Below, in pieces: positions 4,237 to 25,748 of a stretch of 64,000 nt of DNA (positions are counted from its first letter, which is position 1; every line of letters begins with the position of its first letter). Origin of the DNA: Dulcicalothrix desertica PCC 7102 (GTDB lineage: Bacteria > Cyanobacteriota > Cyanobacteriia > Cyanobacteriales > Nostocaceae); contig NZ_RSCL01000021.1 in NCBI RefSeq assembly GCF_003991905.1, forward strand, positions 46,638 through 110,637, read 5' to 3'. Under the pieces are notes generated by a model. That model was not told the DNA's origin. It searched no databases and worked only from the letters and a program-made list of their open reading frames with translations. The position numbers and the translations under genes are program-made.

Positions 4237-5271
4237 CTATCTGGGTGTTTCGCATCCAGAGACTGAAGTATCTGATAACGCACAATTTGGGTTATTGAAA
4301 GATGAAGGTTTTGGTCTACTAAACCAAAACAATAGAGGAATTAAGGTAAGCAATGAGGCAAGCAGAAGCTTAAGTCGATGCTTTATTAAAAAATGAGCAA
4401 CGACTTTTTTGTCAATAGAGCCAGGAAATAAATCGATTTTTCCATGAGCAATTTCAGCAGCACGCATTGCCGCTTCAGTGGCACGTTGAGCGGATAATGC
4501 TGCGATTTTAGCTGTTTCGGCTTCCTGTTTGGCAGCTAAGGCATCTGCTTGCGCGGTTATCGCACCAATTTTAGCTGTTTCAGCTTCTTTCCAAGCTTTT
4601 TTGGCTTCTGCCCTAAAAGTTTCGGCTTCTCGTAAAGCTGCTTCAACCAAAGCTTTGGCAATTTCGATTTCTTTAAGAGCAGTTAGGGCACCAGTTTTAG
4701 CAGTTTCGGTTTGTTTGAGAGCAATTTGGGCGTCAGTTTTAGCATCTTCGGTTTGTTTGAGAGCAGTTAGGGCGCCAGTTTTAGCAGTTTCGGTATCTTT
4801 GAGAGCAGTTAGGGCGCCAGTTTTAGCAGTTTCGGTATCTTTGAGAGCAGTTAGGGCGCCAGTTTTAGCATCTTCAGTTTGTTTGAGAGCAATTTGGGCG
4901 CCAGTTTTAGCATCTTCAGTTTGTTTGAGAGCAATTTGGGCGCCAGTTTTAGCAGCTTCGGTTTGTTTGAGAGCAATTTGGGCGCCAGTTTTAGCAGTTT
5001 CGGTATCTTTGAGAGCAATTTGGGCGCCTAATTTTGCAGTTTCCTTGTTAGCTTCAGTATCATTTTTGGGAATAAGAGGATTGGTAGTTGGTTCTGTGGA
5101 TAGGTTTTCTGTTGATACTTGTAGGATTCCAAATAAAGATTGAAAAACATCCCAATTATCGAGCTTGGAATGTTCTATTGTTGGCTGTTCGATTCCCAGA
5201 AATAGAGATTGCAAAACTTCCCAATTATCGGGAGTGCTTTTTGGAACTGCTTCTGATTTTTTACTTGTCAT
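4237..5271 (-). CDS. 14-residue-repeat coiled-coil protein with C-terminal membrane anchor
   Basis: Last gene of the 16-kb minus-strand train, 344 residues. The N-terminus holds two related peptides, DNWEVLQSLFLG and DNWDVFQSLFG. About nine imperfect copies of a 14-residue unit (TETAKTGAQIALKQ type) follow, forming an Ala/Lys/Glu-rich helix, and then a further coiled coil to about residue 280. One hydrophobic segment (LLLASLLTLIPLLFWF, about residues 305-320) is followed by a short Cys-containing tail, so this is probably a tail-anchored rod. I do not recognise a named family. The NWD/NWE-aromatic motifs also occur at the ends of other proteins of the locus, which suggests a scaffold or tether. 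Confidence 0.75.
   Translation of the reverse strand: MTSKKSEAVPKSTPDNWEVLQSLFLGIEQPTIEHSKLDNWDVFQSLFGILQVSTENLSTEPTTNPLIPKNDTEANKETAKLGAQIALKDTETAKTGAQIALKQTEAAKTGAQIALKQTEDAKTGAQIALKQTEDAKTGALTALKDTETAKTGALTALKDTETAKTGALTALKQTEDAKTDAQIALKQTETAKTGALTALKEIEIAKALVEAALREAETFRAEAKKAWKEAETAKIGAITAQADALAAKQEAETAKIAALSAQRATEAAMRAAEIAHGKIDLFPGSIDKKVVAHFLIKHRLKLLLASLLTLIPLLFWFSRPKPSSFNNPNCALSDTSVSGCETPR
4672..5031 (-). repeat. 42-bp tandem repeat array (coding)
   Basis: About nine head-to-tail 42-base units encode the 14-residue helical repeats of the membrane-anchored protein. Neighbouring units differ by only a few bases (cagtttcggtttgtttgag versus catcttcagtttgtttgag), so the array is recent and likely to vary in copy number between strains. 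Confidence 0.85.
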
Positions 5272-5353
5272 TGAGTCCCCCCTCTCCCTAAAATTTTATT
5301 ACAAGTTATACCTCTAAATAATTACCACTATTCTAATTCACTATTTTTCATAC

Positions 5354-6655
5354 TTACTGTATCAGGGTTGTGTCTAGCCAATCTTGCGCCTCTTCTGCAC
5401 CTACATAAGGCGCCATGATTGTTCCACTACTAGGCTGAGGATTCCATCTTGCGTGCGCTAAAAATACTGTAGTACCACGTTTTTCGCTATAAGGGCAAGC
5501 TCCATATGTAGATATGTTCCATTTTGTCTCATCATGAACTTTAAAGTCTTGTCCATGTCTTGTACTAGTAAGTCCTGTCTGAGGCCATCCTTCTAGCTGT
5601 AAAAAAGTATTATAGTCACCAATAATTGGCATAGACCAGGCTGTACGACCAATTAAAAGTGATACTATAAATGGACAAACGTTAGGTGTTATTTCACCAG
5701 TAACAAAATCTGGGTAAACTTTCGCGGTCTTCAAGTTTCCTGCTGAAACTGGCTTAGAAGCAATAACTTTTGCATAGTGAGAGTGGTAAAGTGCCCAGGC
5801 GTTATTGAGAGGAAATTGATCATAAAAATTAGGTATTTTTTGTCCATTAGTACGTTCATTATCTCTGGAACTATCAATGATAACAAAGTGCGCTCCTACT
5901 GCGAGTAGTTTTAATAAATCCTTAATGTGTTCTGGATTTCCTTGAATAGAGTTTATATTTTTCTTGGAATATCCAGTTAATTTGTATTTGACTTTATTGT
6001 TAACAGCATTGATTTTTTGGAGGTCTGGTACATACATGCATAGTTTGTGATTATTTATGTACTTACATAAATGCGTTATGATGTTGATGTCACTTGGGTG
6101 AGTTTGATTTAAAAGGTTTTGGTTAACTTGGGTAGTTGGTCGTATGATGCTAGGGTTTGTCATCTCTTGAAGTGTTTTGTTCCATACGTTAAGCCAACAC
6201 CCTAATATTATTTCCTTTTCCGAACTAGTAATCAGCCAAGCTTCTTTTTGGTCTGGGTTCAAATTGATAGCTTTCTCAATTTCGGCTTTCCAGTTTAAGC
6301 GAACATCTGGTTGAAACAGGCTATTTACAAACTTATGAATATCTTGCTCATTATTAAAATTTTCTTTAAGTATAGCATTTGAGGGTCGAGCGAATTGTTC
6401 GGCAAAATTTCCTTGACTTAGAGATTCCGCAAATGATGAGCGCTTTTCAGTTCGTCTCAATGGATTCTTATTAATTAAGCCTTTTTGGAGAGTTTCCTGT
6501 CTTGACTTTAAAGATTGCTCTAGTTGAAGCAAACGATTTTCTGAAATTGACTCTGAGTCATTTTTATTAAATTCTTTTGTTTCAGAAAATCCTGCTTGAG
6601 ATTGCTGTTTTATTTGTTCAATTTGCTTTGCCAAACTAAATAGTTTATCACTCAT
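5354..6655 (-). CDS. Locus protein with LLxLExSL motif and an unknown C-terminal domain
   Basis: 433 residues, no signal peptide. The N-terminal 100 residues are polar and disordered-looking and contain NRLLQLEQSL near residue 40, a motif found at the N-termini of two other proteins of the locus. The remaining 330 residues are globular: a conserved-looking stretch has STRHGQDFKVHDETKWNIS then YGACPYSEKRGTTVFLAHAR, with His, Asp and Cys that could be catalytic. It ends TIMAPYVGAEEAQDWL; the 748-residue protein has a similar MAPYV segment. I recognise no family. A short polar leader plus one enzyme-like domain suggests a delivered or processed effector. Confidence 0.65.
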   Translation of the reverse strand: MSDKLFSLAKQIEQIKQQSQAGFSETKEFNKNDSESISENRLLQLEQSLKSRQETLQKGLINKNPLRRTEKRSSFAESLSQGNFAEQFARPSNAILKENFNNEQDIHKFVNSLFQPDVRLNWKAEIEKAINLNPDQKEAWLITSSEKEIILGCWLNVWNKTLQEMTNPSIIRPTTQVNQNLLNQTHPSDINIITHLCKYINNHKLCMYVPDLQKINAVNNKVKYKLTGYSKKNINSIQGNPEHIKDLLKLLAVGAHFVIIDSSRDNERTNGQKIPNFYDQFPLNNAWALYHSHYAKVIASKPVSAGNLKTAKVYPDFVTGEITPNVCPFIVSLLIGRTAWSMPIIGDYNTFLQLEGWPQTGLTSTRHGQDFKVHDETKWNISTYGACPYSEKRGTTVFLAHARWNPQPSSGTIMAPYVGAEEAQDWLDTTLIQ

Positions 6656-6704
6656 GGTTCAATTTATCACTCTTACTTTTTTGTTGACTTTTTGAAATAT
6701 TTCT

Positions 6705-6754
6705 GTTGGGTTACGCAAAGCCTACCCTGTGGGAAAACTCGGTTTACACCCAAC
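6705..6754. repeat. GTTGGGT..ACCCAAC dispersed repeat, copy 4
   Basis: Lies in the gap between the 874- and 433-residue genes of the minus-strand train (GTTGGGT at 6705, ACCCAAC at 6748-6754). It shows that the train has taken up a dispersed repeat in an intergenic gap without being interrupted. Confidence 0.65.
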
Positions 6755-6781
6755 CTACACAGTAATATTGCACTATACGAT

Positions 6782-9406
<2,625 letters not shown>

Positions 9407-9485
9407 AGATAGCTAATAAAGATGAAGTAATTATTTTTACCACAGAGACACGGAGGAGGGAGTAAGAGGCGCCTTGCCATGACAT

Positions 9486-10124
9486 TTAATCTTTATTCTC
9501 TGTTTCATCTGACTCTGCTGAGTCGGCAAACTTGTTAAGTCTTGCTTCTTGTAATGCTTTAAGTAAGGAACTATAAGATGCTTCGCTGTCAGAGAAAGTA
9601 GTATCAGAAACTAAGCTAAATTCAGTTAAGTCTGGTTCTGGAAGCTCAATTTCTGGTAATTCTAATGTGGGTTTAGGTGTTGGTTGCTTTATGGTTGTAA
9701 CTTTTTGATGTAAATCAGAATAAGATTTTTTAATAGTGTCTGACGAAAAACCAAACATTTGTTCACGAGGTAATGGCGCCAATTCATCCTCTTGTGTTTC
9801 AAGTTGAGCTATATTACCGTTAAAACGTTGACTGGCATTGTTGGATAATACTGATGCTAAACCGGAGTAAGATAAGTTATCTATTTTTATAAATTCATCC
9901 ATATATCTATAATCTAATGGCGCCGAATCTTTTTGAGGTTCCTGCTGTTCAAATTCTTCATCTATATTTATACCATCTGAATTTTCTTCTATAGTTTCTA
10001 ATGCATCTCCTTCCGCTTCCTGTAGAGTTACTGGAAAAACAGGTTTATTTTGTGGCACCTGCTTCCATTTGTACAGTTCTTTTTCAAGGGCTAAAAGGCG
10101 ATTTTGGCTAGAATCGTTAGACAT
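9486..10124 (-). CDS. Small acidic protein with N-terminal LLALEKEL motif
   Basis: 212 residues, acidic and largely unstructured by composition. It opens MSNDSSQNRLLALEKELYKWK, the same leader motif as in the 874- and 433-residue proteins, and has NLSYSGLASVL at about residue 83, close to NLTYSGAFV of the 874-residue protein. A Pro/Glu-rich stretch (about 145-165) precedes a helical C-terminus (SSLLKALQEARLNKF). It appears to be the motif-rich leader of the larger proteins without a folded effector domain, so a chaperone, adaptor or decoy role is possible. No family recognised. Confidence 0.6.
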   Translation of the reverse strand: MSNDSSQNRLLALEKELYKWKQVPQNKPVFPVTLQEAEGDALETIEENSDGINIDEEFEQQEPQKDSAPLDYRYMDEFIKIDNLSYSGLASVLSNNASQRFNGNIAQLETQEDELAPLPREQMFGFSSDTIKKSYSDLHQKVTTIKQPTPKPTLELPEIELPEPDLTEFSLVSDTTFSDSEASYSSLLKALQEARLNKFADSAESDETENKD

Positions 10125-10188
10125 ATTTTTGACCTTGTGTTGTATTATAATTTGAGAAAGTCGGTTTATTCCGCAGTCCGATTAATTT

Positions 10189-10956
10189 TTATTTTTTAAG
10201 TTTTGTTATAGGCAATTGTAAATTCATAGTCACAATAGCATAAGGGTCAAGAGCTATTTGCAACTGACTTTGTTCACCTTGTAAATAATTATCATTAACC
10301 TGAATTTTTAATTCTTTCGCGTTTGCCGAAATTACTTCCACCACTTGACTATTAATAGCCGCAGCCGGAAATTGCTCGCTCGATTGGGCTATTGCTAAAT
10401 TTTCTCCCTCTAATGTTAAAATAGTTTTACCTTGCGATTTGGAAAAACTTGCTTTGGAAACTGTAGGTGCCAGTTGTTGGCGCCGGGACTGGTTAATTAA
10501 GTTGGCAAGTCCTTTATAATCAACTTTTTTGTCTGTAACCTTTTCAATATCGACATTTTGGTCTTCGATAGTGCGCCTTAAATCCTCGGCTGAACGAATC
10601 CCCAGCTTTTTAAGCTCTCTTTTTTCTGGTTCTGGGAGGTTAATTTCTTCAAGAGAAATATCACCGCGCGTTAGAGGTTTTCTAGAAACTTCTTGGATTT
10701 GATGGTCTCTAATTGACCCCAGTAAAAAAGTCACTTTAGATGCTCCTATCTCACCTGGTTGAGCAGTGACAAAGCGAACTGTTTCACCATCAAATTCTGG
10801 AAATATTTGTAAGTCGAGGGAGACATCTTTCACAGTATATGTTAATTTTCGATTCATTCCTTTGACAGACAGTGTATCTTGAGCTTTATCCAACTCATAG
10901 ATTAATGAATCGAGAAAAGTTTCTAAATTCCAGGTGCGGTTGTTACTAGTCGCCAT
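10189..10956 (-). CDS. Trypco2-like domain protein
   Basis: 255 residues. The first 95 match the layout of the trypsin-co-occurring domain 2: a helix (LETFLDSLIYELDKAQDTL), strand LTYTVKDVSLDLQIFPEF, a polar loop, then strand KVTFLLGSI. That domain was named for its association with trypsin-like peptidases in predicted NTP-dependent conflict systems; here the peptidases are a subtilisin and a C80-like enzyme. Next comes a helix-hairpin-helix-like part (LKKLGIRSAEDLRRTI), then an Ig/IPT-like beta domain to the end. The ATG overlaps the stop of the preceding gene by 11 bases, indicating translational coupling. Confidence 0.6.
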   Translation of the reverse strand: MATSNNRTWNLETFLDSLIYELDKAQDTLSVKGMNRKLTYTVKDVSLDLQIFPEFDGETVRFVTAQPGEIGASKVTFLLGSIRDHQIQEVSRKPLTRGDISLEEINLPEPEKRELKKLGIRSAEDLRRTIEDQNVDIEKVTDKKVDYKGLANLINQSRRQQLAPTVSKASFSKSQGKTILTLEGENLAIAQSSEQFPAAAINSQVVEVISANAKELKIQVNDNYLQGEQSQLQIALDPYAIVTMNLQLPITKLKK

Positions 10957-11296
10957 CTCTAACTATCCGTAGTCGCATTTGATGAAAAACAGGCATAACA
11001 GTAGTTTTAACAAGTTGGGTTGGGGGTGAACCCTTAATGTTAACTTTACCATCATTATTGACAGTCACTTTTAATTCAATTGGCATATCCACAGTTAGCT
11101 GCTCAATTGTCATGGCTAATCCCGTTTTGTAATCAACTTGCTGTTTTTCGTAATTTGTTAGTTCCTCCACAAGTTGAGCAAATGGCATTAACAAACTGCG
11201 GTCATTTTGTTCTGTTGGCGGTTTTGTTGTTTTAACGGCATCAAACATATCAAGTTTTGGCAGGTTTGATTCACTTGGTTTATTTTCAGGCGCCAT
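10946..11296 (-). CDS. Small beta-rich protein coupled to the trypco2-like gene
   Basis: 116 residues from the ATG at 11296, which overlaps the end of the peptidase gene by 11 bases; the next gene in turn overlaps its own stop. After a polar N-terminus there is a helix (MPFAQLVEELTNYEKQQVDYK) and a pair of amphipathic strands (DMPIELKVTV, KVNIKGS), ending FHQMRLRIVRDGD. The strand pattern recalls the second half of the trypco2-like protein. No named family. The double overlap shows that peptidase, this protein and the trypco2-like protein are made together and probably act together. Confidence 0.7.
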   Translation of the reverse strand: MAPENKPSESNLPKLDMFDAVKTTKPPTEQNDRSLLMPFAQLVEELTNYEKQQVDYKTGLAMTIEQLTVDMPIELKVTVNNDGKVNIKGSPPTQLVKTTVMPVFHQMRLRIVRDGD

Positions 11297-12221
11297 TACG
11301 ACGTGCTTCCTCTTTTGATTCAAGATTTACAGGGTAAAGTCCAACAGATTGGTCAAAGATAACTTTCATGCCATTCAGCAAAACTGGTTCGTTGGCTAGA
11401 GCATAGTTGAGTCCCGAAGGCGCCCAAGGGAAAACTGAATTAGCATTAGATAAGGCGCCTGCAAGAGTAAAGGGGTTAAAATGGAAGCCAAAAACATGTG
11501 CAGATTTTTTAGTATCTACATACTTTTCCAAAAATTCATCTTCCTTAAGTTTGCTTAATTTATCTAAATGTTTTTGGTCAAATGTTACAATATCTGGCTT
11601 TTTATCAGAGATATATCCTACGCCATTCATCCCTCTTATTATAATATCTTGACCATATTTTTCCTTTTTCAATGTTTCACTCACTAAAAAAGTTATGGCA
11701 CCTACTGTACTCACCTTTCCTTGGTCTGCTTCATTTCCACTATAGATAAGAGTTTTCATACTATTCAAAGCACCAGCAGAGATATTAATAATTACTTCTG
11801 GAGGGTCTGCAACTCGCTGGTAAGTATCAATATTTAATGCTGACTCACAACACCAAATGCTGATTTTATTTATTTTTAAATTCAAAATACAAAAAATAAT
11901 AAACGGTGTAATTTCTTCAATTTTGTACCCACCTATTCTTCTAGCGCTTAGTGATAATCCCTTAAGCTTGCTTATATTTTGATCGTGAAAAGGGGTGTCG
12001 CTTGGAAAAAAGCGTGAATGACCTGTAATTATCAATTCATTAAATTTTTTCCCATCAATGCTTGTGTGAGCATACTTCGGTGATATCTCGCTAAACTTGA
12101 TGACAGTTACAGTATTTTTCTGAACATTTTTTTCGTGTTTTTCTATAGCACTAGTCATGCGCCACATTTCACCATCACTATCATCTTTAAGACATGCCAC
12201 AATCAAAACGTTTTCCGGCAT
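11286..12221 (-). CDS. Putative clan CD (C80/caspase-like) cysteine peptidase
   Basis: 311 residues, no signal peptide. The first 135 residues have a Rossmann-like alternation typical of caspase-fold enzymes: LIVACLKDD, then NELIITGHS with a probable catalytic His68 at the end of a strand, then KISIWCCESA with Cys124/Cys125 at the end of the next. This spacing resembles C80 (MARTX-type self-cleaving) and other clan CD peptidases. GMNGVGYISD around residue 200 may be part of the specificity loop. The C-terminal 60 residues are an extra part ending ESKEEARRNGA. In clan CD families the peptidase is usually activated by a ligand or by processing. The call rests on motif positions only. Confidence 0.5.
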   Translation of the reverse strand: MPENVLIVACLKDDSDGEMWRMTSAIEKHEKNVQKNTVTVIKFSEISPKYAHTSIDGKKFNELIITGHSRFFPSDTPFHDQNISKLKGLSLSARRIGGYKIEEITPFIIFCILNLKINKISIWCCESALNIDTYQRVADPPEVIINISAGALNSMKTLIYSGNEADQGKVSTVGAITFLVSETLKKEKYGQDIIIRGMNGVGYISDKKPDIVTFDQKHLDKLSKLKEDEFLEKYVDTKKSAHVFGFHFNPFTLAGALSNANSVFPWAPSGLNYALANEPVLLNGMKVIFDQSVGLYPVNLESKEEARRNGA

Positions 12222-12293
12222 TTTTTCCTCACTTGTATATACTGTATTAGTTTTCTGACCATGAATAATTACATCAAAATTTATGTTGACTGA

Positions 12294-14540
12294 TTAACCT
12301 GTACTCACCCCAATAAAATGAGCGGTTGCGGGCATGGGAAAATAAACTGGATGTTCTCTCAATCCCAGCACATGACCATGAGCATTAGTATTTTCTGCAC
12401 GCTTAAGTATTACCTGTTGCAGTTTAACTTCGGGATATATCCACAGTGCAACTGTTTCTCTGGGTCGTCCTTGAAATTTTACCTGGGTGCGAGCTGCATT
12501 ATTAAACCGTTGTCTAAATTCTGGCGCCATCAGTGCTGATAATTCACCCGAACTTAGTCGAGGATGTTGGGAAATTTGTCCCAGCAGTTCGTTCAACACG
12601 TAAGGCGCCATAATTAAACCTGATTTTAGCCTGCTCTTTCGACCCGCTAAATCTTCTTCTAAAACCTGCGTCACTGTCTCCATGCGAGCGTTTTCAGTGC
12701 GTTTCGTTTCTAGCGTGTAGTAATATTTACAATCAAAATTCACTCTGCGTACATTTTCAGTTAAATCTCCCTGCCAAACTTTGTGCCAGTAAGAACGGAA
12801 TTTCTCTACATTATTTAGCGGTATTGTTTCACCTGAACTTTCTACACGGTCAAACAAGTATTCGCCTACCAATGTAAACATTTGTACAGTACTTGTTCCC
12901 AGACGTTTAACTTGTTGTGTCTTTTTAGATCGACCCTGCCAGACTAATGCGGCACAAACTAAATATTCTTGATTGGGAGCTAGTTTTTTCAGATGCTCTT
13001 TACTAATTCTGGGTGCTACGCTTAACATACCAGAAGTGGCGCTTTCAATTTGATAGTTTTGCTCGATTAATATTTTTAATGTTTTTGGGTGTTTAACCAG
13101 CAGTTGCAATCGTGCTTTTCTAACTGGCTGGGGTGTTTGTAATTTTAGTGGGAAGGCAATATCCTGGTCTTGGCGATATAAAAAACGTGAACGTCCGTGC
13201 ATCATTACAGGTTTTACATCGCTAAATTCTAAGGTAACGGCGCCTACTCGTTGGTATATTAAGTCTGGTGTTGCAGATGCTGCCATTGCCAAACTCAAAG
13301 CAATTAATACTGCCTCATCCTCTGCATCTTCTCCATCAATGCCCAGCATCATACTCATTTGACCAGATGCTGCTGTTTGAGGATTGAGTAACGACGTAAA
13401 CATATTCATCAGTTGAGGGCCAAGCGTTGAGAGTAATGTTGGCGCCAGAGATAGCAACTTCGGTGCAATGGTAGATAATATGCCACCAAGAGCAGGCAGA
13501 ATTGCGCCGATAAACATTGACTCCGCGTATTCAGATGACATTGCATCTGCATAATCTGAAGATAGGGAAAGACCATAGGTATCTGCCTCATCCTCATCTT
13601 CATCAAAGTCTAAGCTTGAATAGTAATTTTGTGCTGATAATGCTAAAGATTTAGCTCTTGATACCCCACGTTTTTGAGCAGGCGCCACACGACTCATAAC
13701 CGGTTGAGGTCGAGGTGTTGTAGTAACTCTAGGTTGTGGTACAAGTGCGCTAACTATGTTTGCGACGTTTGAGGTAGCTGGTGCTGATACTGGTGCTGTT
13801 TGTTCTGGCGCCGCGACAGCACTGCCGACTTGTTGGAGCAACCCAGTTAAAATACTCGTTAACTGGCTAGCATCTGGAGGTTGTCCTGTTGCGGTCGGGG
13901 TACTTCCATCTGTAGAAGTGGTGCCACCTGTAAGTTGGGGTAATAATCCGCCAATAACACCCGCTAATTGCGGCAATATTGAACTAAGTATACCAGTAAT
14001 TCCACCAGATGCTCCACCAGATGCTCCACCAGTAGCTATTCCCGTAACTGCACCAAGAATAGGCGCCGCAACGCTTTTGACTGCATTTAGTATTCCACCC
14101 AAAAACATCGCCTCGCTGACGGGTTGAACTTCTCGATATTGAAAGGGTACTGTTTCGATTGGAGCTTTATCCATTGCCGTTTCCATTGCTGTTGTTAAGC
14201 TAAACGAAGTTGCAGGTGTAGTTCCAATCGCGACCGTGACAATTTCTGAGATGGCAGGTCCAACCCGTTGACGGTCGCGAAAGCTAGTAATTTGGATGGC
14301 ACGGTGTTTTGTATCAAATTTGTTGTTGGGAACTTCAAAAATTGTTCGTCCTAGGTTTTCAGGTGATAAGGTAAGTAGCTCGGAGGTATAAATAGGGCTT
14401 TGTAGCATTTTTAAGCCATTGACATCATGCACCTCTAAGCCACCAATTTGATATTGATAAAACCGATTTGTGCCTAAATCAATTTGAAATCGGCTTTTGG
14501 CGCCGTCACTTTCTAAAAATCGCAGAATTGCCAGTGCCAT
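12294..14540 (-). CDS. Large protein with duplicated hydrophobic glycine-rich segments
   Basis: 748 residues. An N-terminal beta domain (about 1-115) is followed by a long hydrophobic Gly/Ala/Leu-rich region. Two segments look like a duplication: SEAMFLGGILNAVKSVAAPI (near 145) and AESMFIGAILPALGGILSTI (near 340), each continuing into amphipathic Gly-zipper-like helices. An intervening linker is Pro/Thr-rich. The C-terminal 330 residues are beta-rich, with a helical hairpin and a MAPYV segment also found in the 433-residue protein. I know no matching family. The two glycine-rich helices could insert into membranes, making this the best candidate of the locus for a pore or membrane-docking component. 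Confidence 0.65.
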   Translation of the reverse strand: MALAILRFLESDGAKSRFQIDLGTNRFYQYQIGGLEVHDVNGLKMLQSPIYTSELLTLSPENLGRTIFEVPNNKFDTKHRAIQITSFRDRQRVGPAISEIVTVAIGTTPATSFSLTTAMETAMDKAPIETVPFQYREVQPVSEAMFLGGILNAVKSVAAPILGAVTGIATGGASGGASGGITGILSSILPQLAGVIGGLLPQLTGGTTSTDGSTPTATGQPPDASQLTSILTGLLQQVGSAVAAPEQTAPVSAPATSNVANIVSALVPQPRVTTTPRPQPVMSRVAPAQKRGVSRAKSLALSAQNYYSSLDFDEDEDEADTYGLSLSSDYADAMSSEYAESMFIGAILPALGGILSTIAPKLLSLAPTLLSTLGPQLMNMFTSLLNPQTAASGQMSMMLGIDGEDAEDEAVLIALSLAMAASATPDLIYQRVGAVTLEFSDVKPVMMHGRSRFLYRQDQDIAFPLKLQTPQPVRKARLQLLVKHPKTLKILIEQNYQIESATSGMLSVAPRISKEHLKKLAPNQEYLVCAALVWQGRSKKTQQVKRLGTSTVQMFTLVGEYLFDRVESSGETIPLNNVEKFRSYWHKVWQGDLTENVRRVNFDCKYYYTLETKRTENARMETVTQVLEEDLAGRKSRLKSGLIMAPYVLNELLGQISQHPRLSSGELSALMAPEFRQRFNNAARTQVKFQGRPRETVALWIYPEVKLQQVILKRAENTNAHGHVLGLREHPVYFPMPATAHFIGVSTG

Positions 14541-14552
14541 AGCTTCTGGTTG

Positions 14553-15635
14553 TTAAGGGGTTGTTGGTGGAGGTGCGGGTGGTAATTGTTGCGGAGGTGT
14601 TGCTGGTGGAACTTGGGACTGTGGTGCGGGAACTTGTCCTTGACCTAAATCGAAGATTTCTCTGAAGTTATCCAATTTGAAGTAGTCTGATTTAAATTGA
14701 ATTTCTACAAAACCTTCCATTTGTGCTGAAAGTTCTGAACCCATCTCAGTGTTTGATGTGGCAATGCTAACTTGTGATTTTTGCCGTGAGAAACCTCCAC
14801 CAAAACCAAAAAATCCGGTGTTGAAGGAAGACCCTTCGTTTCTACTTTCTTGCGCTCTATCATCGTTAACGGTATCTTCGTAGGCATCAATATTAAATTT
14901 GACATTGGCGCGGATTACACCTTTTTCAACAACCATACGGGAAACACCCATTAGCAAAGTTTCTCGCAGTAATGTTCGTCGCTCCTTTGCCAAAGCCAAT
15001 CTCGCATCCAAGATTTTAGCTTGAATGGCAGCATCATTCATATTGGCTTCTTTACCCGTTGCCTGGTCAATAAGAACGGGTTTTGGTGGTTCGGCGCCTT
15101 GGGCAGGTTCATTTGCGTTTCGTCGTCCTCCTCCTCGGCGCCTACCAGTACCTGCTTTGCTCATTGACAAACGATATTGATTATTACTTTCTACTAAACG
15201 TAGCAAAGCTTCTTCATCCCCAACTTGTCGGACATATTCAGCAAGTGACTTAGTAGCTTGCTTCATTAAATCCATAAATACCCGCATCTGCCGCTCGTTG
15301 GCATCTTGGTTCGCATCGAAAACACCCACGAGCAAATCCCGTACAAAGCCAGGAAAATTCACTTTATTAACGAGTTTGCCTAAAGTATCCGCAGCATCCT
15401 GATTTGCATCCCCAATACGACGATTTATATGTCGGTTTGCGTCAATCATATCACCAGCAGCCATTTCAGTTGCTAGTCCTTGTTCTTCGGCTAAGTCGTT
15501 GTAGTTGGCATCAACTAATTCTTTGTATAAGGACATTTGTTCTTCTCTATCCATCGCGCGGAAAGATTGCGAGTGAGATAGAAGAGATCGAGTTTTGGCA
15601 CGAGCTTGTTCTTTTAGTTCTTGTTGATTGGGCAT
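14553..15635 (-). CDS. DUF2589-like protein with helical N-terminus
   Basis: 360 residues. The N-terminal 160 are helical (KEQARAKTRSLLSHSQSFRA... to LLRLVESNNQ), then comes a basic Gly-rich linker (GTGRRRGGGRR). The core from about 200 starts with a long helix (ILDARLALAKERRTLLRETLL), then MGVSRMVVEKGVIRANVKFNID, a mobile loop rich in Phe/Gly, and strands QVSIATSNTEMGSEL and GFVEIQFKSDYF. That order is reminiscent of DUF2589-type proteins. The end is Pro/Gln-rich. It is 12 bases before the next gene, so the two are co-transcribed. Function unknown; the family resemblance is tentative. Confidence 0.6.
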   Translation of the reverse strand: MPNQQELKEQARAKTRSLLSHSQSFRAMDREEQMSLYKELVDANYNDLAEEQGLATEMAAGDMIDANRHINRRIGDANQDAADTLGKLVNKVNFPGFVRDLLVGVFDANQDANERQMRVFMDLMKQATKSLAEYVRQVGDEEALLRLVESNNQYRLSMSKAGTGRRRGGGRRNANEPAQGAEPPKPVLIDQATGKEANMNDAAIQAKILDARLALAKERRTLLRETLLMGVSRMVVEKGVIRANVKFNIDAYEDTVNDDRAQESRNEGSSFNTGFFGFGGGFSRQKSQVSIATSNTEMGSELSAQMEGFVEIQFKSDYFKLDNFREIFDLGQGQVPAPQSQVPPATPPQQLPPAPPPTTP

Positions 15636-15686
15636 GGTAATAACTTCCTACAAAATTACTTCTACAAAGTTGATAAATGAGAGAGT

Positions 15687-17459
15687 TTAAACATCCCAAT
15701 CATCGAAATCATCATTGCTAGACCGTTTTTTTGGTTTTGCTGCCGCTAACCGATGAGAATTTTTATGGCTTCTGCCGTTGTTGCTGTTTCTATTACCGTG
15801 AAACTCACTGTCATGACGAGCTGACTCCATCGATGCTTGGGAAATAATCCAAGACTCTGCGGCACTTAAAAGCATGTCAAAATCAACTTCCCGTACTCCA
15901 CCTTCAGATTCAAAGCCGGCAATCCATTGAAAAATCTTGTTTCCTTCAACTGCAATAGTTCTGAGAGGAGCGGTTGGCACTGTAGTACCTAAGTCTTCTT
16001 TTGCTACTCGCTCAATTACACTCCAAAGAGTTTTACGTCTTCCACCAAAGTGATTAATAATATCTTCTGACCGAATAATATCAAGGGCTTCTTGCAAATG
16101 AGCATAGTCTTCTGTCACTTGGACGTGGGACATACCAGTCATATGCTCGGTTAAATTATATTGCAAATTTTTGGTTGCTTGATATAGAGGCGCCCGTGAT
16201 ACCCAAACGTCTTTACTACGTTCTGATTTGCGAATATATTCCACTACTTCTGCCATCAATTGATGCCAGAGTCCTGCAAAAGCGGTATTTGCCACCATAC
16301 TAGAAAGTAATTTACCGTTACCTCTATTTAATACGCGCTTATAAAGCATTGCCCTTTCTGCTGAGGTGCTTCGTTCATTACGTAATTTATGAAAGCGGTA
16401 GAGAATACTTGCTGTTTTTCCTTCTGGAACATCAAGCATTCCACTTGCCCAACGCAGTACTAAAGCATTTGCTACGTCAAATACTCGCATTCCTTCACCA
16501 ATGAAGTATATGTAGTCTAATGCTCCTGCTGCCTTAATATTTTCTGGAATTATACCTTGACGGTCAACAGCATCAAAGTTGTCTACTACAAAATTCCAAG
16601 TGACTTGACCACCCTTAATACGTGCGGTATCAATTGGGTCATCGGCAACGGCGCTCATTTTTTGAGCTTCGTTGTATGCTAGGGCAAGATATTCATCATT
16701 ATTTTTAAAGTCATCATCCGATCCAAACTTCACCCCTAACTTAAGCAGGTAATCAATCATTGATTGCTTAATAGCTGGAGTGAACGAGCTTTCTTCTACG
16801 GCGCCGCTTCTAGCATATAGTTCAACATAGTAGGGAACTTTCCCTTCTTTGTAGACAATATTTAAGAGCGCAACAACCGCAGAGCGAACTTGACCCGCAC
16901 GGATATCAATACCTTGCTTACGAGTAAGTTCAACCAGTCGAGGCCAGTTTTTATTCGGGTCGTTTAGGACAACTTGAACGTTTAAGTCATCGGTAACATT
17001 CGCTAGTATCCTTGCAAAAAAGTATTGCTTAGGAACATTATCAATTCGTAACACAACGGCATTTGCTAAACCAACAATATCATCTGACTTAACAGAATCA
17101 ACTGCCTGTAATAGTACAAAAGCATAAATGCTAGAACTAGATAGCAGTAACCTAGGTATATCTCCCAGTCCGTTTGTATCAAGTTTCTTGGTTAGCTGGT
17201 CAATCTTATCAATTGATAATTTTTTTGCTAGGGTATCTTTTGCGGTTGCCTCTAATGTGCTTCCTGGGTTTTCCTTTATATATTCCCCTTTATACTCCTC
17301 CCACTTAGCCGTTCTTATCCACTCTTCGGTTTCCTTCAAAGCAGATGCTGCATAGGAGTCAATACTGGTTGGCGCCCTAAAAGCCAGCGCTCTATCGACA
17401 GCATAGCTTTGGGGAACGCCATTAGAATTGTTGCTTGTTGTAGTGCTGGGTGTTGCCAT
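15687..17459 (-). CDS. Helical 590-residue locus protein with FDDWDV tail
   Basis: 590 residues, no signal peptide or membrane segment. The body is predominantly helical (VDRALAFRAPTSIDSYAASAL, FFARILANVTDDL, DVANALVLRWASGML and others), with the look of an alpha-solenoid or structural shell protein. The last 50 residues are basic, Ser/His-rich and disordered and end NDDFDDWDV. That acidic-aromatic peptide resembles the NWDDFEEFF tail of the preceding gene's product and the NWE/NWD peptides at the head of the membrane-anchored repeat protein. No named family. I infer a structural or hub component. Confidence 0.65.
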   Translation of the reverse strand: MATPSTTTSNNSNGVPQSYAVDRALAFRAPTSIDSYAASALKETEEWIRTAKWEEYKGEYIKENPGSTLEATAKDTLAKKLSIDKIDQLTKKLDTNGLGDIPRLLLSSSSIYAFVLLQAVDSVKSDDIVGLANAVVLRIDNVPKQYFFARILANVTDDLNVQVVLNDPNKNWPRLVELTRKQGIDIRAGQVRSAVVALLNIVYKEGKVPYYVELYARSGAVEESSFTPAIKQSMIDYLLKLGVKFGSDDDFKNNDEYLALAYNEAQKMSAVADDPIDTARIKGGQVTWNFVVDNFDAVDRQGIIPENIKAAGALDYIYFIGEGMRVFDVANALVLRWASGMLDVPEGKTASILYRFHKLRNERSTSAERAMLYKRVLNRGNGKLLSSMVANTAFAGLWHQLMAEVVEYIRKSERSKDVWVSRAPLYQATKNLQYNLTEHMTGMSHVQVTEDYAHLQEALDIIRSEDIINHFGGRRKTLWSVIERVAKEDLGTTVPTAPLRTIAVEGNKIFQWIAGFESEGGVREVDFDMLLSAAESWIISQASMESARHDSEFHGNRNSNNGRSHKNSHRLAAAKPKKRSSNDDFDDWDV

Positions 17460-17519
17460 AATGTAATACTTTTAATTAGGGTTTAATACAATCCGAAATA
17501 TGTTTTCAGTACTTCTTAA

Positions 17520-19028
17520 CTAAGCAGAACCTTTGATTTTCTTTGTTTTTAAATCAAAGAACTCCTCAAAATCATCCCAATTTGTTTCGTCTGGCGGCAA
17601 TTCTTTTTTCTTGCTTTTGCTTGTGCGGGTAGTATCAGTATTGTTCTCAAACAATTCCCAGATATTTTTAAAGTTAGGACCTTCTAATGGAGTTGAGCTT
17701 TTGGGTACATCTAAACCACTTTCAGCAGCTTTAGCCAGCTTGTCAACCTCTTGTTTTATTTTCTCAATCTTTTCTGGAACTAATTTAAGTTCTTCTAATG
17801 GCTTGCTAATTCTACCATACGCAGCTTTTGCTTCTTCTTCCTTTTCAGCAATATTGTTTACTGAAATTTTTAATATATCTAATTCGGTAAATTTATGGCT
17901 TTCTTCCTCCTGATTTTCTACATCTTGAACTGCTGTTTCAGCGTTTTTAACTTCATTTACAATTATTGTAAAAATTGTTTCAGCGTTTTCCAATTCTTTT
18001 TGAACAATATCATCCTGTTTTATTGCTTGATTAGCAGCTTCATCAGATGCTTTTGCTTTTTCTGCTGAAAGTTTACTTAATGCCTCGGCAGCAGCCTCTC
18101 TAGCTTGTTTAACTACACTTTCGACACCACTCCTTAATGCCTTAATTTGATTGTATATATTTGTTGCTTCTGCCAACTTAATAGAGGCGCCTCTTGCAGA
18201 TTCTTTGGCTTTGACTAGGGAAGCAGAAGCCTCAGCTCTATAAGCTTGTATTTGTGCTGTTTTTCGTGCCTCCAAAACAGTGGTTTGTACTTCAACTATT
18301 CGATTTAATAATGGCTCAACTTCTTTTTTAACTTCTGCAACAACACTATCTTTAGCCTCATTAACATCTCTAGTCGCTTCATTTTTTGCTACATTAATCT
18401 CTTTGATATTACTATCTTTGACAACATTGACTTCTTTAACTGCACTATCTCTTGCTCCATTAACACCTTTAACCACGCTATCTCTAGCAATATTAATATC
18501 TTTTATTACATTGTCTTTTGTTTCTTTAATTTTTTCAATTGCTTTATCTTGGCTGCTATCGACCTCTTCAATAACTCTATTTTTAGCAGCATTAATCAAT
18601 TCAATTGCACTATCTTTTACATTGTCGATAGTTTTGACTGAGGTATTTTTAGCGTCATCAATACTTTTAACGGCGTTATTAATTTTTCCTAAATTTTCAG
18701 TGGCACCAGTTATCGCTGTATTTACATCACTAATCGCAGTGTTGGCGTTATCTTTAGCAGTGTTGATTTGTTTAAGTATTTCTTGAAATTCACTATCTGT
18801 TTGATTCCATATTGGTTCAAATCGTTTAATTAACGCTTCCCAAGTTTTATCACCTACCTCACCATCAACTTTAAGTCCTGCATTTCTCTGAAAGTTTTCA
18901 ACTGCTGTTTTGGTTGCTCCATCAAAAGTATCGCTGATATTTTTAATTACATTAGGTTGCAAAACCTTTAAATATGATTGCAATATCTTTACAAGTAGAC
19001 CTTTTGAGCCTGATTTCAGTGATTCCAT
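17520..19028 (-). CDS. Peptidoglycan-binding-like domain plus long coiled coil
   Basis: 502 residues from the ATG at 19028, chosen because the fold begins immediately after it; the frame extends 11 codons further into the subtilisin gene. Residues about 3-70 are a PG_binding_1-type domain: LKSGSKGLLVKILQSYL, FDGATKTAVENFQRNAGLKVDGEVGDKTW. Next comes a very long helix with 11-residue repeats of the form VKDSxxKEINVA (about 120-240), then Ala/Glu-rich coiled coil to about 420. The tail has NIWELFENN and ETNWDDFEEFF, matching acidic-aromatic motifs elsewhere in the locus. There is no signal peptide, so the N-terminal domain may bind something other than the wall. Confidence 0.75.
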   Translation of the reverse strand: MESLKSGSKGLLVKILQSYLKVLQPNVIKNISDTFDGATKTAVENFQRNAGLKVDGEVGDKTWEALIKRFEPIWNQTDSEFQEILKQINTAKDNANTAISDVNTAITGATENLGKINNAVKSIDDAKNTSVKTIDNVKDSAIELINAAKNRVIEEVDSSQDKAIEKIKETKDNVIKDINIARDSVVKGVNGARDSAVKEVNVVKDSNIKEINVAKNEATRDVNEAKDSVVAEVKKEVEPLLNRIVEVQTTVLEARKTAQIQAYRAEASASLVKAKESARGASIKLAEATNIYNQIKALRSGVESVVKQAREAAAEALSKLSAEKAKASDEAANQAIKQDDIVQKELENAETIFTIIVNEVKNAETAVQDVENQEEESHKFTELDILKISVNNIAEKEEEAKAAYGRISKPLEELKLVPEKIEKIKQEVDKLAKAAESGLDVPKSSTPLEGPNFKNIWELFENNTDTTRTSKSKKKELPPDETNWDDFEEFFDLKTKKIKGSA

Positions 19029-19038
19029 ATTTAACCTG

Positions 19039-20334
19039 TCAATAGTTAAGTTTATAATCAAGAAGTTTTAATGCATCGATTAGGTTTAGTCTCCCAAACC
19101 CTGCTTTTCGATGCTTAAAGCGACTATCAATTTTGTCTGCTGTATGTTGAATTAGGTGTTTAACCTGTCTATCTTGCAGACGAATACCTTTCTTTTTCAG
19201 AGCGTAAGATTTTAGTAAAGCTACTGCACCTGCTACAAAGGGAGAAGCGTGAGAAGTTCCTGTGGAGAAGGCATATTCTTTGTTCAAGTAGGTACTGTAA
19301 ATATTAGTACCTGGCGCCACAAAATCGAGCTTGCCATAAGTAGAAAACGGCGCAATATTTCCCATCTCATCAGTGGCGCCAACAGCAATAACATAAGGCA
19401 GTGAACCAGGATAGTAGAGTTGCTCAGTACCATCATTGCCAGATGCTGCAATGATAGTTACTCCTTTGCGTTGGGCATAGTCTACAACTTCTTGGTGTGG
19501 TAATCCTCCACCTGCATGTTGAATACCTAAGCTCATATTAATGACATCAGCACCTTTATCTATAGCCCACTTAATACCTGCATTGATGTTGTCTACCAAA
19601 CCGGCGCCGACTCGTTTATTACCTCGCTGCATTGCCCCTAACACCCGCACAGGTAGAATTTTACAATTGGGCACAACTCCAGAAGGCATTGATTCACCTT
19701 GAGCCGCAATAATACCTGCCACATGAGTTCCATGTCCAACTTCATCCTCTGGTATTTCATCGGCACCTAAATAGTCACCTAAAAATTTTCCAGTTCCATC
19801 AATAATGTCAACAAAGTCATGTCCTGGCAACAATGCATGAGCAAATTCTGGGTGATGCAGCGACACACCCGTATCCAATACCGCAACAGTTATCTCTGGT
19901 GTACCCTGAGTAAACTGATGCGCTTCAGGTAAATAAATTGCTTGGCGAGAGCGCATATCTGTTGTCATACTCATTGCAGCAGATTGCATTGTTGGTAAAT
20001 GTGCTTCTCCTACTGCACCAACTTGCACCGACTCGACAATCTTGCACTTCCGCATTTCCTGGATAAGGCTATCTGGCACTGTTACATTTTGCTGAAGAAT
20101 AATTCGGTAAACACGATTAAGCCCACTAGCGATTTCTTCAATGTTCCAATCTTTCCCGCTAGGCTTATACTCTTGTGTCACCCAAACTGGCAACCTATAT
20201 TTAGTAAAAAACGTATCAATCTCAGGATGAAGATTTGTAACAGCTTGTGCTTTATTTTGTAACAATTGCTGCCAATGGGGTGCATTAGCAAAACAGGCAT
20301 GTTCCTTTAATTTCAGCCTTATATGCGACTTCAT
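19039..20334 (-). CDS. Subtilisin-like serine peptidase (S8), apparently cytoplasmic
   Basis: 431 residues with a complete S8 triad: Asp154 in VLDTGV, His201 in GHGTHVAG, Ser361 in GTSHASPFVAG, and the oxyanion Asn300 in AASGND. The domain runs from about residue 145 to the end (GFGRLNLIDALKLL). The first 140 residues form a polar pro-region or docking domain, and there is no signal peptide or lipobox, so the enzyme probably works in the cytoplasm or is released by lysis. It is the first gene of the 16-kb train and sits 10 bases before the next gene. It probably cleaves or activates the other locus proteins. Confidence 0.93.
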   Translation of the reverse strand: MKSHIRLKLKEHACFANAPHWQQLLQNKAQAVTNLHPEIDTFFTKYRLPVWVTQEYKPSGKDWNIEEIASGLNRVYRIILQQNVTVPDSLIQEMRKCKIVESVQVGAVGEAHLPTMQSAAMSMTTDMRSRQAIYLPEAHQFTQGTPEITVAVLDTGVSLHHPEFAHALLPGHDFVDIIDGTGKFLGDYLGADEIPEDEVGHGTHVAGIIAAQGESMPSGVVPNCKILPVRVLGAMQRGNKRVGAGLVDNINAGIKWAIDKGADVINMSLGIQHAGGGLPHQEVVDYAQRKGVTIIAASGNDGTEQLYYPGSLPYVIAVGATDEMGNIAPFSTYGKLDFVAPGTNIYSTYLNKEYAFSTGTSHASPFVAGAVALLKSYALKKKGIRLQDRQVKHLIQHTADKIDSRFKHRKAGFGRLNLIDALKLLDYKLNY

Positions 20335-21022: not shown

Positions 21023-21457
21023 GTGAGTAAATTAGGCAAAAAAAGATTAGAAGCAACTTCGGTAATTGTAACTTGTGCGCTCGGTAATGCCAGTGTTTCT
21101 GTGGCGCCCACACCTGGTGTAGAACTTCCCAAGCAGTTTCTTTTGACTGCTTCGGATATTTTAATGTATTCCCGTATATGGAAAACTTACTTTGAAGAAG
21201 ATTTATCGAGCAAAGGCATTTTAGATATATTAACAGAATTAGGTTTAGTTTGTGCAGTTGGCGCCGGAACAGGGTATGTAGTAAGCAAAGCGTCAACAGC
21301 AGTATTAAAAGAAATTATCAACTGGACTGGCCCGTTAGGTTGGGGAGTTACCGCAGCTGTAGCTGGTTCTGTCTCAGCAATGTTTGGCGCCGCATGGGCA
21401 TTATACTGCGATAAGACCTACCAACAAAAACATCCACAAGAGAGTGCTGAGTTCTGA
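21023..21457 (+). CDS. Small glycine-rich membrane protein
   Basis: 144 residues from a GTG start preceded by AGGAGA. Two hydrophobic Gly/Ala-rich segments (ILTELGLVCAVGAGTGYVV and the WTGPLGWGVTAAVAGSVSAM region) suggest a hairpin membrane insertion similar in texture to DUF697-type C-termini. A conserved-looking amphipathic N-terminal half precedes them. Function unknown. Its tail is followed immediately by a heptamer repeat array, whose first unit overlaps the last codons. Confidence 0.6.
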   Translation: MSKLGKKRLEATSVIVTCALGNASVSVAPTPGVELPKQFLLTASDILMYSRIWKTYFEEDLSSKGILDILTELGLVCAVGAGTGYVVSKASTAVLKEIINWTGPLGWGVTAAVAGSVSAMFGAAWALYCDKTYQQKHPQESAEF

Positions 21458-21495
21458 GTGCTGAGTTCTGAGTGCTGAGTGTTGAGTGTTGAGTA
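21442..21495. repeat. Heptanucleotide tandem repeat (STRR-like)
   Basis: Seven to eight copies of a 7-base unit (GAGTGCT/GAGTTCT/GAGTGTT) run through the stop of the preceding gene. Short tandemly repeated repetitive heptamers of this kind are a known trait of heterocystous cyanobacteria. Confidence 0.8.
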
Positions 21496-21558
21496 TTAAA
21501 TAGTAAATTACTACTACACTTTACAGCCGCACTCAATTACTTACCTCGCTTCAACTAT

Positions 21559-25602: not shown

Positions 25603-25748
25603 AGGTAGTACTGAGTTGCGTATGTTTCCACAATACAACTATGCACTAATTAAGTATTCCGTAATTTTGCGTGTTTTAATACAAATGTATTTTAACTAAC
25701 TCAGTGAAGCTACTGAATATAATATTTAAAATTATCAAAAATATACAT

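Follow-up and report, generated by a model that had tools for sequence, protein, structure and literature searches.

Polymorphic toxin systems join a constant address part to exchangeable toxins, Ntox11, Ntox30 and EndoU-type domains among them, and encode processing peptidases nearby, according to the sections available of Zhang et al. (2012; PMC3482391). In the peptidase conflict systems of multicellular bacteria, trypsin- and S8-type peptidases are accompanied by wall-attacking effectors and, in the case of EAD1, linked to them through an adaptor domain that they have in common (Kaur et al., 2020; PMC7159879, likewise in part). Here we describe a locus that resembles both, located in a 64,000-nucleotide stretch (the window) of the 11.4 Mb genome of the cyanobacterium Dulcicalothrix desertica PCC 7102 and consisting of twelve open reading frames (ORFs), L to A. 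It is almost certainly a conserved gene system, judged by sequence comparison, and its payload is very probably tagged and exchangeable. That it acts outside the producing cell is a proposition we regard as evenly balanced, and we see about equal arguments for and against its being a system dedicated to effector deployment that has no contractile sheath of its own. The literature within reach of our search, which did not extend to preprints and most subscription journals, contained no description of the locus.

A gene block conserved in two architectures

A first-pass annotation of the window had pointed to a co-oriented train of twelve genes, and the ORFs lie as it placed them: all are on the minus strand between 20334 and 4237, with intergenic gaps of -38 to 126 bases. 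With the TTG starts given in the ORF list, three pairs overlap (L/K by 23, G/F by 38 and F/E by 11 bases); position 11296, which the annotation gave as one of the overlapping ends, is the first in-frame ATG of F. The core of the locus is S8-J-I-H-F-E, and its variable portion consists of K, the partner domain of G, and D to A. The core genes are:

L, 19039..20334, minus strand: S8 subtilisin of 431 amino acids, the first gene, without export signal (PF00082, 4.2e-55)
J, 15687..17459, minus strand: core protein of 590 amino acids without a named family
I, 14553..15635, minus strand: core protein of 360 amino acids, with helices and two long amphipathic strands
H, 12294..14540, minus strand: type-1 core protein of 748 amino acids with hydrophobic stretches
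F, 10946..11323, minus strand: small core protein of 125 amino acids
E, 10189..10956, minus strand: core protein of 255 amino acids, the best-conserved marker of the system

J was matched in seven of 100 genomes, our own included: near full-length in our own and in three of the six other genomes of the genus, and partially in three of other genera. Three Tolypothrix/Microchaete plasmid records carry it as well, and replicons from Burkholderia pyrrocinia and from a Paraburkholderia have diverged copies. A scan of a species-genome collection with an alignment of E returned 69 loci from cyanobacteria, Bacteroidota, Pseudomonadota, Actinomycetota and others; together with four further loci (L008, L009, L010 and L013) these form the set of 73 that was searched with profiles. 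E served as bait, and its presence (72 loci) is by construction. I was found in 69 loci (166 matches), J in 68 (113 matches), C in 35, H in 34 (all type 1), G in 23, K in six, and B and D in three each, and the F family, sought with two profiles, was present in all 72 loci that carry E. In the 56 long loci (at least 20 kb), F, I and J were never missing and the subtilisin was seen in 53.

The loci fall into two types, which in the tree of E (37 rows of type 1, 35 of type 2) stand on opposite sides of a 100/100 branch. The long type-1 loci (n = 28, with L013 and L022, which overlap and are one locus, counted separately) all have J, I, H and F, 27 have a C-type protein and 25 have the subtilisin; in the three others (L022, L023 and L026) J lies within 1.8 kb of the sequence edge, and the subtilisin gene of L022 is visible in the overlapping L013. 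In each of the long type-2 loci (n = 28), the subtilisin, J, I and F are accompanied by a large enzyme protein and by a protein of about 350 amino acids (x350), with four I matches in 27 and two J matches in 27. Thus, in these comparisons a constant core (S8, J, I, F and E, with H in type 1) stays together as one unit beside variable genes for predicted toxins and hydrolases. The first-pass annotation had made its reading as one system depend on whether the genes keep together elsewhere; in other genomes the block does stay together, which rules out a chance gene train and supports that reading.

The subtilisin had been described as lacking an export signal, and there is indeed no N-terminal hydrophobic segment; the triad is in place (Asp154, His201 and Ser361). 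Among proteins of known structure it is closest to AK.1 protease and thermitase; intracellular serine proteases rank lower. Across the family the catalytic triad is intact in 64 of 67 aligned rows, the three exceptions being pieces of one broken gene, which argues that protease activity is under selection. (A regular expression found all three motifs in only 15 of 66 ORFs; it was too strict, and the alignment was used instead.)

A constant tag with exchangeable partners

The clearest sign of exchange is in G:

G, 11286..12221, minus strand: exchangeable protein with a partner domain (amino acids 1 to about 255) followed by a constant tag
G tag, 11289..11456, minus strand: amino acids 256-311, containing NEPVLLNGMKVIFDQSVGLYPVNLESK, with a constant part of about 45 residues

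Two sister Calothrix loci share 87-99% identity with the window in L, J, I, H, F and E, while in G the match is confined to the tag; among the 73 loci, nothing related to the partner domain of the window's G was found at E<0.3. The tag, with 12 invariant residues in seven proteins, may stand before or after its partner. Of the 23 profile matches, which lie in 23 loci, 11 are in fused proteins of at least 290 amino acids, 10 in free frames of 60-95 and two in frames of 134-160. Among 60 relatives it occurs in four, once in each, and the same four have a near full-length J. G thus has the feature expected of a polymorphic toxin system, a constant region joined to a domain that differs between close relatives; the C-type proteins, which end in Ntox11 here and in EndoU in another locus, fit it too. 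The first-pass annotation had likened G to C80 peptidases, a label that we drop: there was no Pfam peptidase match at E<=1 and no match in the PDB at E<=10, and the partner domain has His and Cys motifs by eye only.

When six other tag-fused proteins and the plasmid one were scanned against Pfam, two partners were over or at cut-off: an RGS domain (1.4e-15; L024 7978-9060, in a Nostoc metagenome bin) and, in Elainella, Ntox30 (2.3e-5, exactly at cut-off). The RGS protein also has a Membrane Localization Domain match below cut-off (22 bits versus 35). To our knowledge an RGS domain is useful only inside a eukaryotic cell, and its presence therefore argues for action outside the producer.

A second tag and the candidate payloads

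Downstream of E lie further tagged proteins:

C, 6782..9406, minus strand: predicted payload of 874 amino acids with N-terminal tags and a C-terminal Ntox11 domain
Ntox11 domain of C, 6860..7522, minus strand: PF15521, amino acids 629-849, 3.1e-27, 96 bits versus a cut-off of 25
N-terminal tags of C, 9350..9373 (LLTLEQSL) and a second copy at 9119-9142 (LFALEQSV), minus strand
FDQMGRNVSHATAFDLGTFSLEQRFDEF motif of C, 8309..8392, minus strand
FDWDEAI repeats of C, 9251-9271 and 9008-9028, minus strand
D, 9486..10124, minus strand: tagged protein of 212 amino acids, N-terminal NRLLALEKEL, partner without an assigned family
B, 5354..6655, minus strand: tagged protein of 433 amino acids, NRLLQLEQSL at amino acids 40-49, no Pfam family over cut-off; a probable payload

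By eye, the Ntox11 domain of C retains the GxR, RxxxoH, GxE and GxxH motifs that are listed for this family in the available part of Zhang et al. (PMC3482391). The motif L-L/F-x-L-E is common to the N-terminal regions of B, C (twice) and D and absent from 47 control ORFs of the window. A loose form of it, N[RSK][LFIV]x(1,2)[LIVM]E (NRLxxLE), was scored in the first 150 residues of the ORFs of 34 type-1 loci. Downstream of E, 40 of 129 ORFs had it, against 1.2 expected from shuffles; it was in none of 206 core ORFs (2.5 expected) and in two of 177 others (1.9 expected). The downstream ORFs of cyanobacteria carry it in 20 of 24 members of the C, D and B families and in five of 24 others; outside cyanobacteria, 14 of 59 downstream ORFs other than the C type have it (0.59 expected), often directly after the start codon in Bacteroidota and Pseudomonadota. 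Among the 91 downstream ORFs of at least 300 amino acids, 29 have the pattern in their first 150 residues and two in their last 150. A tagged ORF is present in all 13 cyanobacterial type-1 loci and in 12 of the 21 non-cyanobacterial ones. Many predicted payloads thus carry short constant tags.

The motif-rich proteins had been taken as substrates of the peptidases. Motif-rich they are, but they look rather like payload with docking tags, with C an Ntox11 toxin and G an exchangeable fusion. Similarly, the view of the locus as peptidase-centred misses the variable part, namely the toxin of C and the fusion in G. The guess of a role in delivery or death was sensible, although the Ntox11 payload had been overlooked, and as that annotation proposed the subtilisin may cleave the motif-rich proteins and H or A may give membrane access. 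Overall, we find its interpretation partly supported.

Related loci were examined by scanning 99 of 139 candidate type-1 neighbours (66 and 33), to which two from L040 and the window's G were added; the remainder includes L028 (nearly identical to L027), the fragmented L053 and genes at a greater distance from the core. The C-type protein of Myxacorys ends in EndoU (5.1e-6), no other C-type protein scanned, apart from that of the window, had a family over cut-off, and in one locus the gene adjoining C encodes an Exo_endo_phos2 protein (1.1e-17). Downstream genes outside cyanobacteria include many wall enzymes: among the matches listed for 68 neighbours scanned are Peptidase_C70 (seven), Phage_lysozyme (six), VanY (five), Amidase_2 (four) and Hedgehog-type M15 (three), next to Mg-chelatase, AraC regulators and the like, which are ordinary neighbours or regulators. 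In Flavivirga a lysozyme gene is followed by one for a VanY and M15 protein, and a 1216-residue protein of Fluviicola has M15, lysozyme, GH108, peptidoglycan-binding, LysM (weak) and amidase domains. The type-2 scan (n = 32: 28 of 33 large proteins, three x350 and one DUF3467 protein) gave Peptidase_C70 in 24, Amidase_2 in 20 and Trypsin_2 in 13. A profile of type-2 proteins brought up AmpD-type amidases, an uncharacterised protein and one with an SLT domain; the C-terminal region of the Burkholderia type-2 protein by itself had no solved relatives and did not reproduce the SLT-domain match.

Two side observations concern these proteins. The Flavivirga payload with VanY and M15 (L041 13505-14830) matches the Hedgehog amino-terminal signalling domain (7.9e-53). 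The x350 protein (L010 17086-18138 and 32 other type-2 loci) recalls aromatic prenyltransferases by eye; three copies had no Pfam family of their own.

Self-lysis and envelope remodelling as alternatives

Eight of the payload wall hydrolases were inspected by eye and have no classical signal peptide. Enzymes of this kind beside a cytosolic subtilisin, together with nuclease-type toxins, are what would be expected of the main rival explanation, programmed self-lysis or altruistic death: stress or infection would activate the subtilisin, which would free inactive hydrolases and toxins held by the core, and a membrane-active part would give access to the wall, as holin and endolysin do. Trypsin/S8 conflict systems with lysozyme-like and papain-like wall-attacking effectors, described in the sections available of Kaur et al. 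(PMC7159879), offer a parallel. However, self-lysis would explain the wall hydrolases and not the RGS partner, which is useless inside the producer; swaps of payload partners between sister strains are typical of weapons; and the library scans found no sensor or signalling NTPase domain among the window proteins. We consider self-lysis unlikely, if still the strongest of the alternatives.

Wall enzymes dominate the payload outside cyanobacteria, and the window itself encodes a protein that is predicted to bind peptidoglycan:

K, 17520..19061, minus strand: 513 amino acids, peptidoglycan-binding domain and long helical rod (PG_binding_1, 6.2e-14)

Both observations would suit an envelope remodelling or differentiation complex, in which a scaffold and a protease, both cytosolic, would direct wall enzymes in growth, heterocyst formation or gliding. 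The system is nevertheless rare: it was found in four of 386 cyanobacterial genomes sampled, our own included, two of the four having E-like stretches in longer frames, and in one of 296 Bacteroidota genomes, which is the centre genome of that sample itself. Nuclease toxins and an RGS partner would also be out of place in such a complex, and we think this role very improbable. The E-like stretches just mentioned lie in frames of 534-729 amino acids (G375:C16; G466:C264 and C142) and perhaps represent a further architecture.

Contractile systems encoded elsewhere

The first-pass annotation had seen no contractile, tube or secretion-ATPase gene, and our scans agree: Pfam, NCBIfam, PADLOC and PHROGs gave no such family in the twelve window proteins, and there was none among the matches listed for related loci (25 of 54 families for one neighbour set). 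A phage gp5 trimerisation domain match in one related locus was below cut-off. The locus could instead be an accessory effector-loading module for a contractile injection system (CIS) encoded elsewhere, whether an extracellular one (eCIS/PVC), a thylakoid CIS or a type VI secretion system (T6SS). The available part of Zhang et al. (PMC3482391) lists Ntox11 as a PVC-delivered toxin, our genome has three genes of the PF04984 sheath family away from the locus, and at least one such gene is present in six of seven cyanobacterial locus-bearing genomes tested. On the other hand, in 48 locus-bearing genomes, some of them draft or metagenome assemblies of unstated completeness, PF04984 (E<=0.001) was unmatched in 21, and neither PF04984 nor VipB was matched in 14. 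Moreover, PF04984 is present in all seven genomes of the genus, with or without the locus, and in 29 of 60 relatives, and its presence is therefore no sign of an association. We judge this explanation improbable, though with less confidence for cyanobacteria in view of the six sheath-bearing genomes among seven.

Core proteins and remaining features

J has no Pfam match at E<=1 and no match in the PDB. For I, an AlphaFold model built from 78 sequences has helices and two long paired strands (predicted local distance difference test, pLDDT, 73; predicted template modelling score, pTM, 0.45), and hydrophobic/polar alternation extends over parts of both strands family-wide. They could form a membrane hairpin or pack on helices; no solved relatives were found in the PDB. 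H has four hydrophobic stretches in the window copy, in keeping with the earlier description of a protein with hydrophobic segments, and 26 of 28 aligned members have a segment whose mean hydropathy exceeds 1.4; such stretches often take the form APALLAALPALMPLL. E has a weak TIG match (0.018) under the Pfam cut-off.

Two earlier family labels found no support. A DUF2589-like assignment, which we tested on I, scored 2% in a profile comparison against a thin template of two true DUF2589 proteins, a weak test; PF11655 was absent from our genome at E<=0.01, and the layout of strands and a Gly-rich loop resembles DUF2589 by eye only. The trypco2-like label, tested on E, reached 0.2% probability against one true Trypco2 protein, again a thin template and a weak test.

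In the window, Pfam matches over cut-off are confined to L, K and C (amino acids 629-849). NCBIfam, PADLOC and PHROGs, searched with protein sets that differed between libraries, added only weak or generic matches and further peptidoglycan-binding and endolysin matches for K, in which an apparent coiled coil follows PG_binding_1, as the first-pass annotation had read it. None of these libraries named a family for the core proteins other than the subtilisin, and none of the twelve proteins has a Walker A motif, an N-terminal hydrophobic segment or an export signal. The last gene of the train is:

A, 4237..5271, minus strand: repeat protein of 344 amino acids with a hydrophobic segment (amino acids 299-320) and DNWDVF motifs

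A defence system was considered and rejected: PADLOC gave a generic subtilase and IetS for L, a weak Cas8e for K (0.003) and no match for the eight other window proteins scanned. So was a phage origin, E having no relatives in IMG/VR and J and H none in 50,697 phage records (tblastn). RNA structure 5' of the subtilisin gene was no better than in shuffled sequences, and promoter and terminator scans were close to shuffled means.

Elsewhere in the window, a run of GAGTGCT/GAGTTCT-like heptamers (21447-21497) lies beside a plus-strand ORF of 144 amino acids without a Pfam match at E<=0.1, and 24187-25638 encodes a GH5 cellulase (8.4e-50) with CBM2 (9.6e-6), here in a cyanobacterial genome. Two related loci are incomplete. 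On a Tolypothrix plasmid (L008 13460-24957), L to E only are followed by an IS701 transposase, D to A being missing, and in Lacinutrix neustonica (L053 2721-11918) S8, J, H and C are split into pieces, through decay or frameshift errors.

A model for tagged payload delivery

We propose that F, E, I, J and H would assemble into a cytosolic complex or particle on which payloads dock through an N-terminal NRLxxLE helix or the LLNGMKVIFD tag. Upon assembly the cytosolic subtilisin would trim or release them, as a maturation protease. Membrane passage might be through the hydrophobic stretches of H, the amphipathic strands of I, or both, and the loaded complex would leave by lysis or another route and then act on neighbours. 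Its targets would be bacterial walls for the versions of Bacteroidota and Pseudomonadota and, for those of cyanobacteria, the contents of cells, perhaps those of eukaryotic grazers.

The conservation of the block in 56 long loci, the kept triad and the constant G tag with its swapped partners are consistent with such a system, and the predicted payloads and partners resemble typical weapons (Ntox11, EndoU, Ntox30, RGS, lysozyme, VanY/M15, amidase and papain-like peptidases). Several points weigh against it. Secretion of the payload is putative, and no energy source is seen. H is absent from type 2 and therefore cannot be a general membrane device, and the model that gives I its beta strands has a low pTM (0.45). 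The RGS partner is known from one metagenome bin only. The NRLxxLE pattern was set post hoc, after the window proteins and a few payload starts had been seen; it occurs in only one of 22 non-cyanobacterial C-type proteins and in none of 342 plus-strand ORFs of type-2 loci. No NRLxxLE-tagged ORF is found in nine of the 21 non-cyanobacterial type-1 loci, and the tree of E needs six changes of phylum label where five is the minimum possible, leaving horizontal transfer unsupported; because of these two results we lowered our confidence both in action outside the producer and in a new kind of machine.

The latter would be a new class of non-contractile delivery machine, built of J, I, F and E (with H in one branch), in which an internal subtilisin serves as assembly protease and two tags load toxins and hydrolases. 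Found in at least six phyla, it would be directed against bacteria in some hosts and against eukaryotes in cyanobacteria; we regard it as a real possibility that falls somewhat short of an even chance. The system appears categorically new, with delivery as its putative function. If the proposal is true, a delivery principle would be added beside contractile injection and membrane secretion, and even should the system turn out to serve self-lysis, a lysis complex addressed by tags and spread over several phyla would be a novelty. The proposal supplies function hypotheses for five unnamed protein families and a candidate reason why wall hydrolases without signal peptides lie beside a cytosolic subtilisin in very different bacteria. 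The compact tags are suited to immediate binding assays and could be used as handles for finding new toxin domains, and culturable strains as well as plasmids (Tolypothrix PCC 7601 and 7712) carry the system.

Comparison with known systems

One relative is a third J-bearing operon, itself unnamed, found in three cyanobacterial genomes (G017, G024 and G049) and in Paraburkholderia PGU19 (L009 9736-16930; loci L014-L019). Like the locus described here, it combines J (profile matches of 1e-51 to 1e-65) with a hydrophobic protein weakly matching H (7e-4, one locus), which is one of its EFE/EYE-repeat proteins. In contrast, E, F and I are unmatched there (E<=0.1), and the EFE/EYE proteins and a conserved HEVSH-motif protein, seen in G017 and PGU19, replace the subtilisin; by eye there is also a LuxR-like regulator. 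J may therefore belong to a wider family of such systems. Beside a J of this third type, L007 493-1377 encodes a protein of 294 amino acids with an N-terminal SEFEDEDEF stretch and, by eye, a C-terminus resembling a GIY-YIG nuclease, possibly a tagged payload of that system.

Contractile injection systems would share with our locus the gathering of tagged effectors for other cells, and Ntox11 is a known PVC cargo in the available part of Zhang et al. (PMC3482391), but the locus yielded no match to a sheath, tube, spike, baseplate or AAA ATPase family, nor was there one among the matches listed for related loci. The peptidase conflict systems differ in their parts, since the window proteins gave no NucA, STAND NTPase, MoxR, vWA or EAD match and the core here is J-I-F-E (with H). 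Finally, although the likeness to polymorphic toxin systems extends to the toxins themselves, the window locus encodes none of the export routes listed in the available sections of Zhang et al. (PMC3482391), its tags are short, unlike the leader domains listed there, and the payloads outside cyanobacteria are mostly wall hydrolases.

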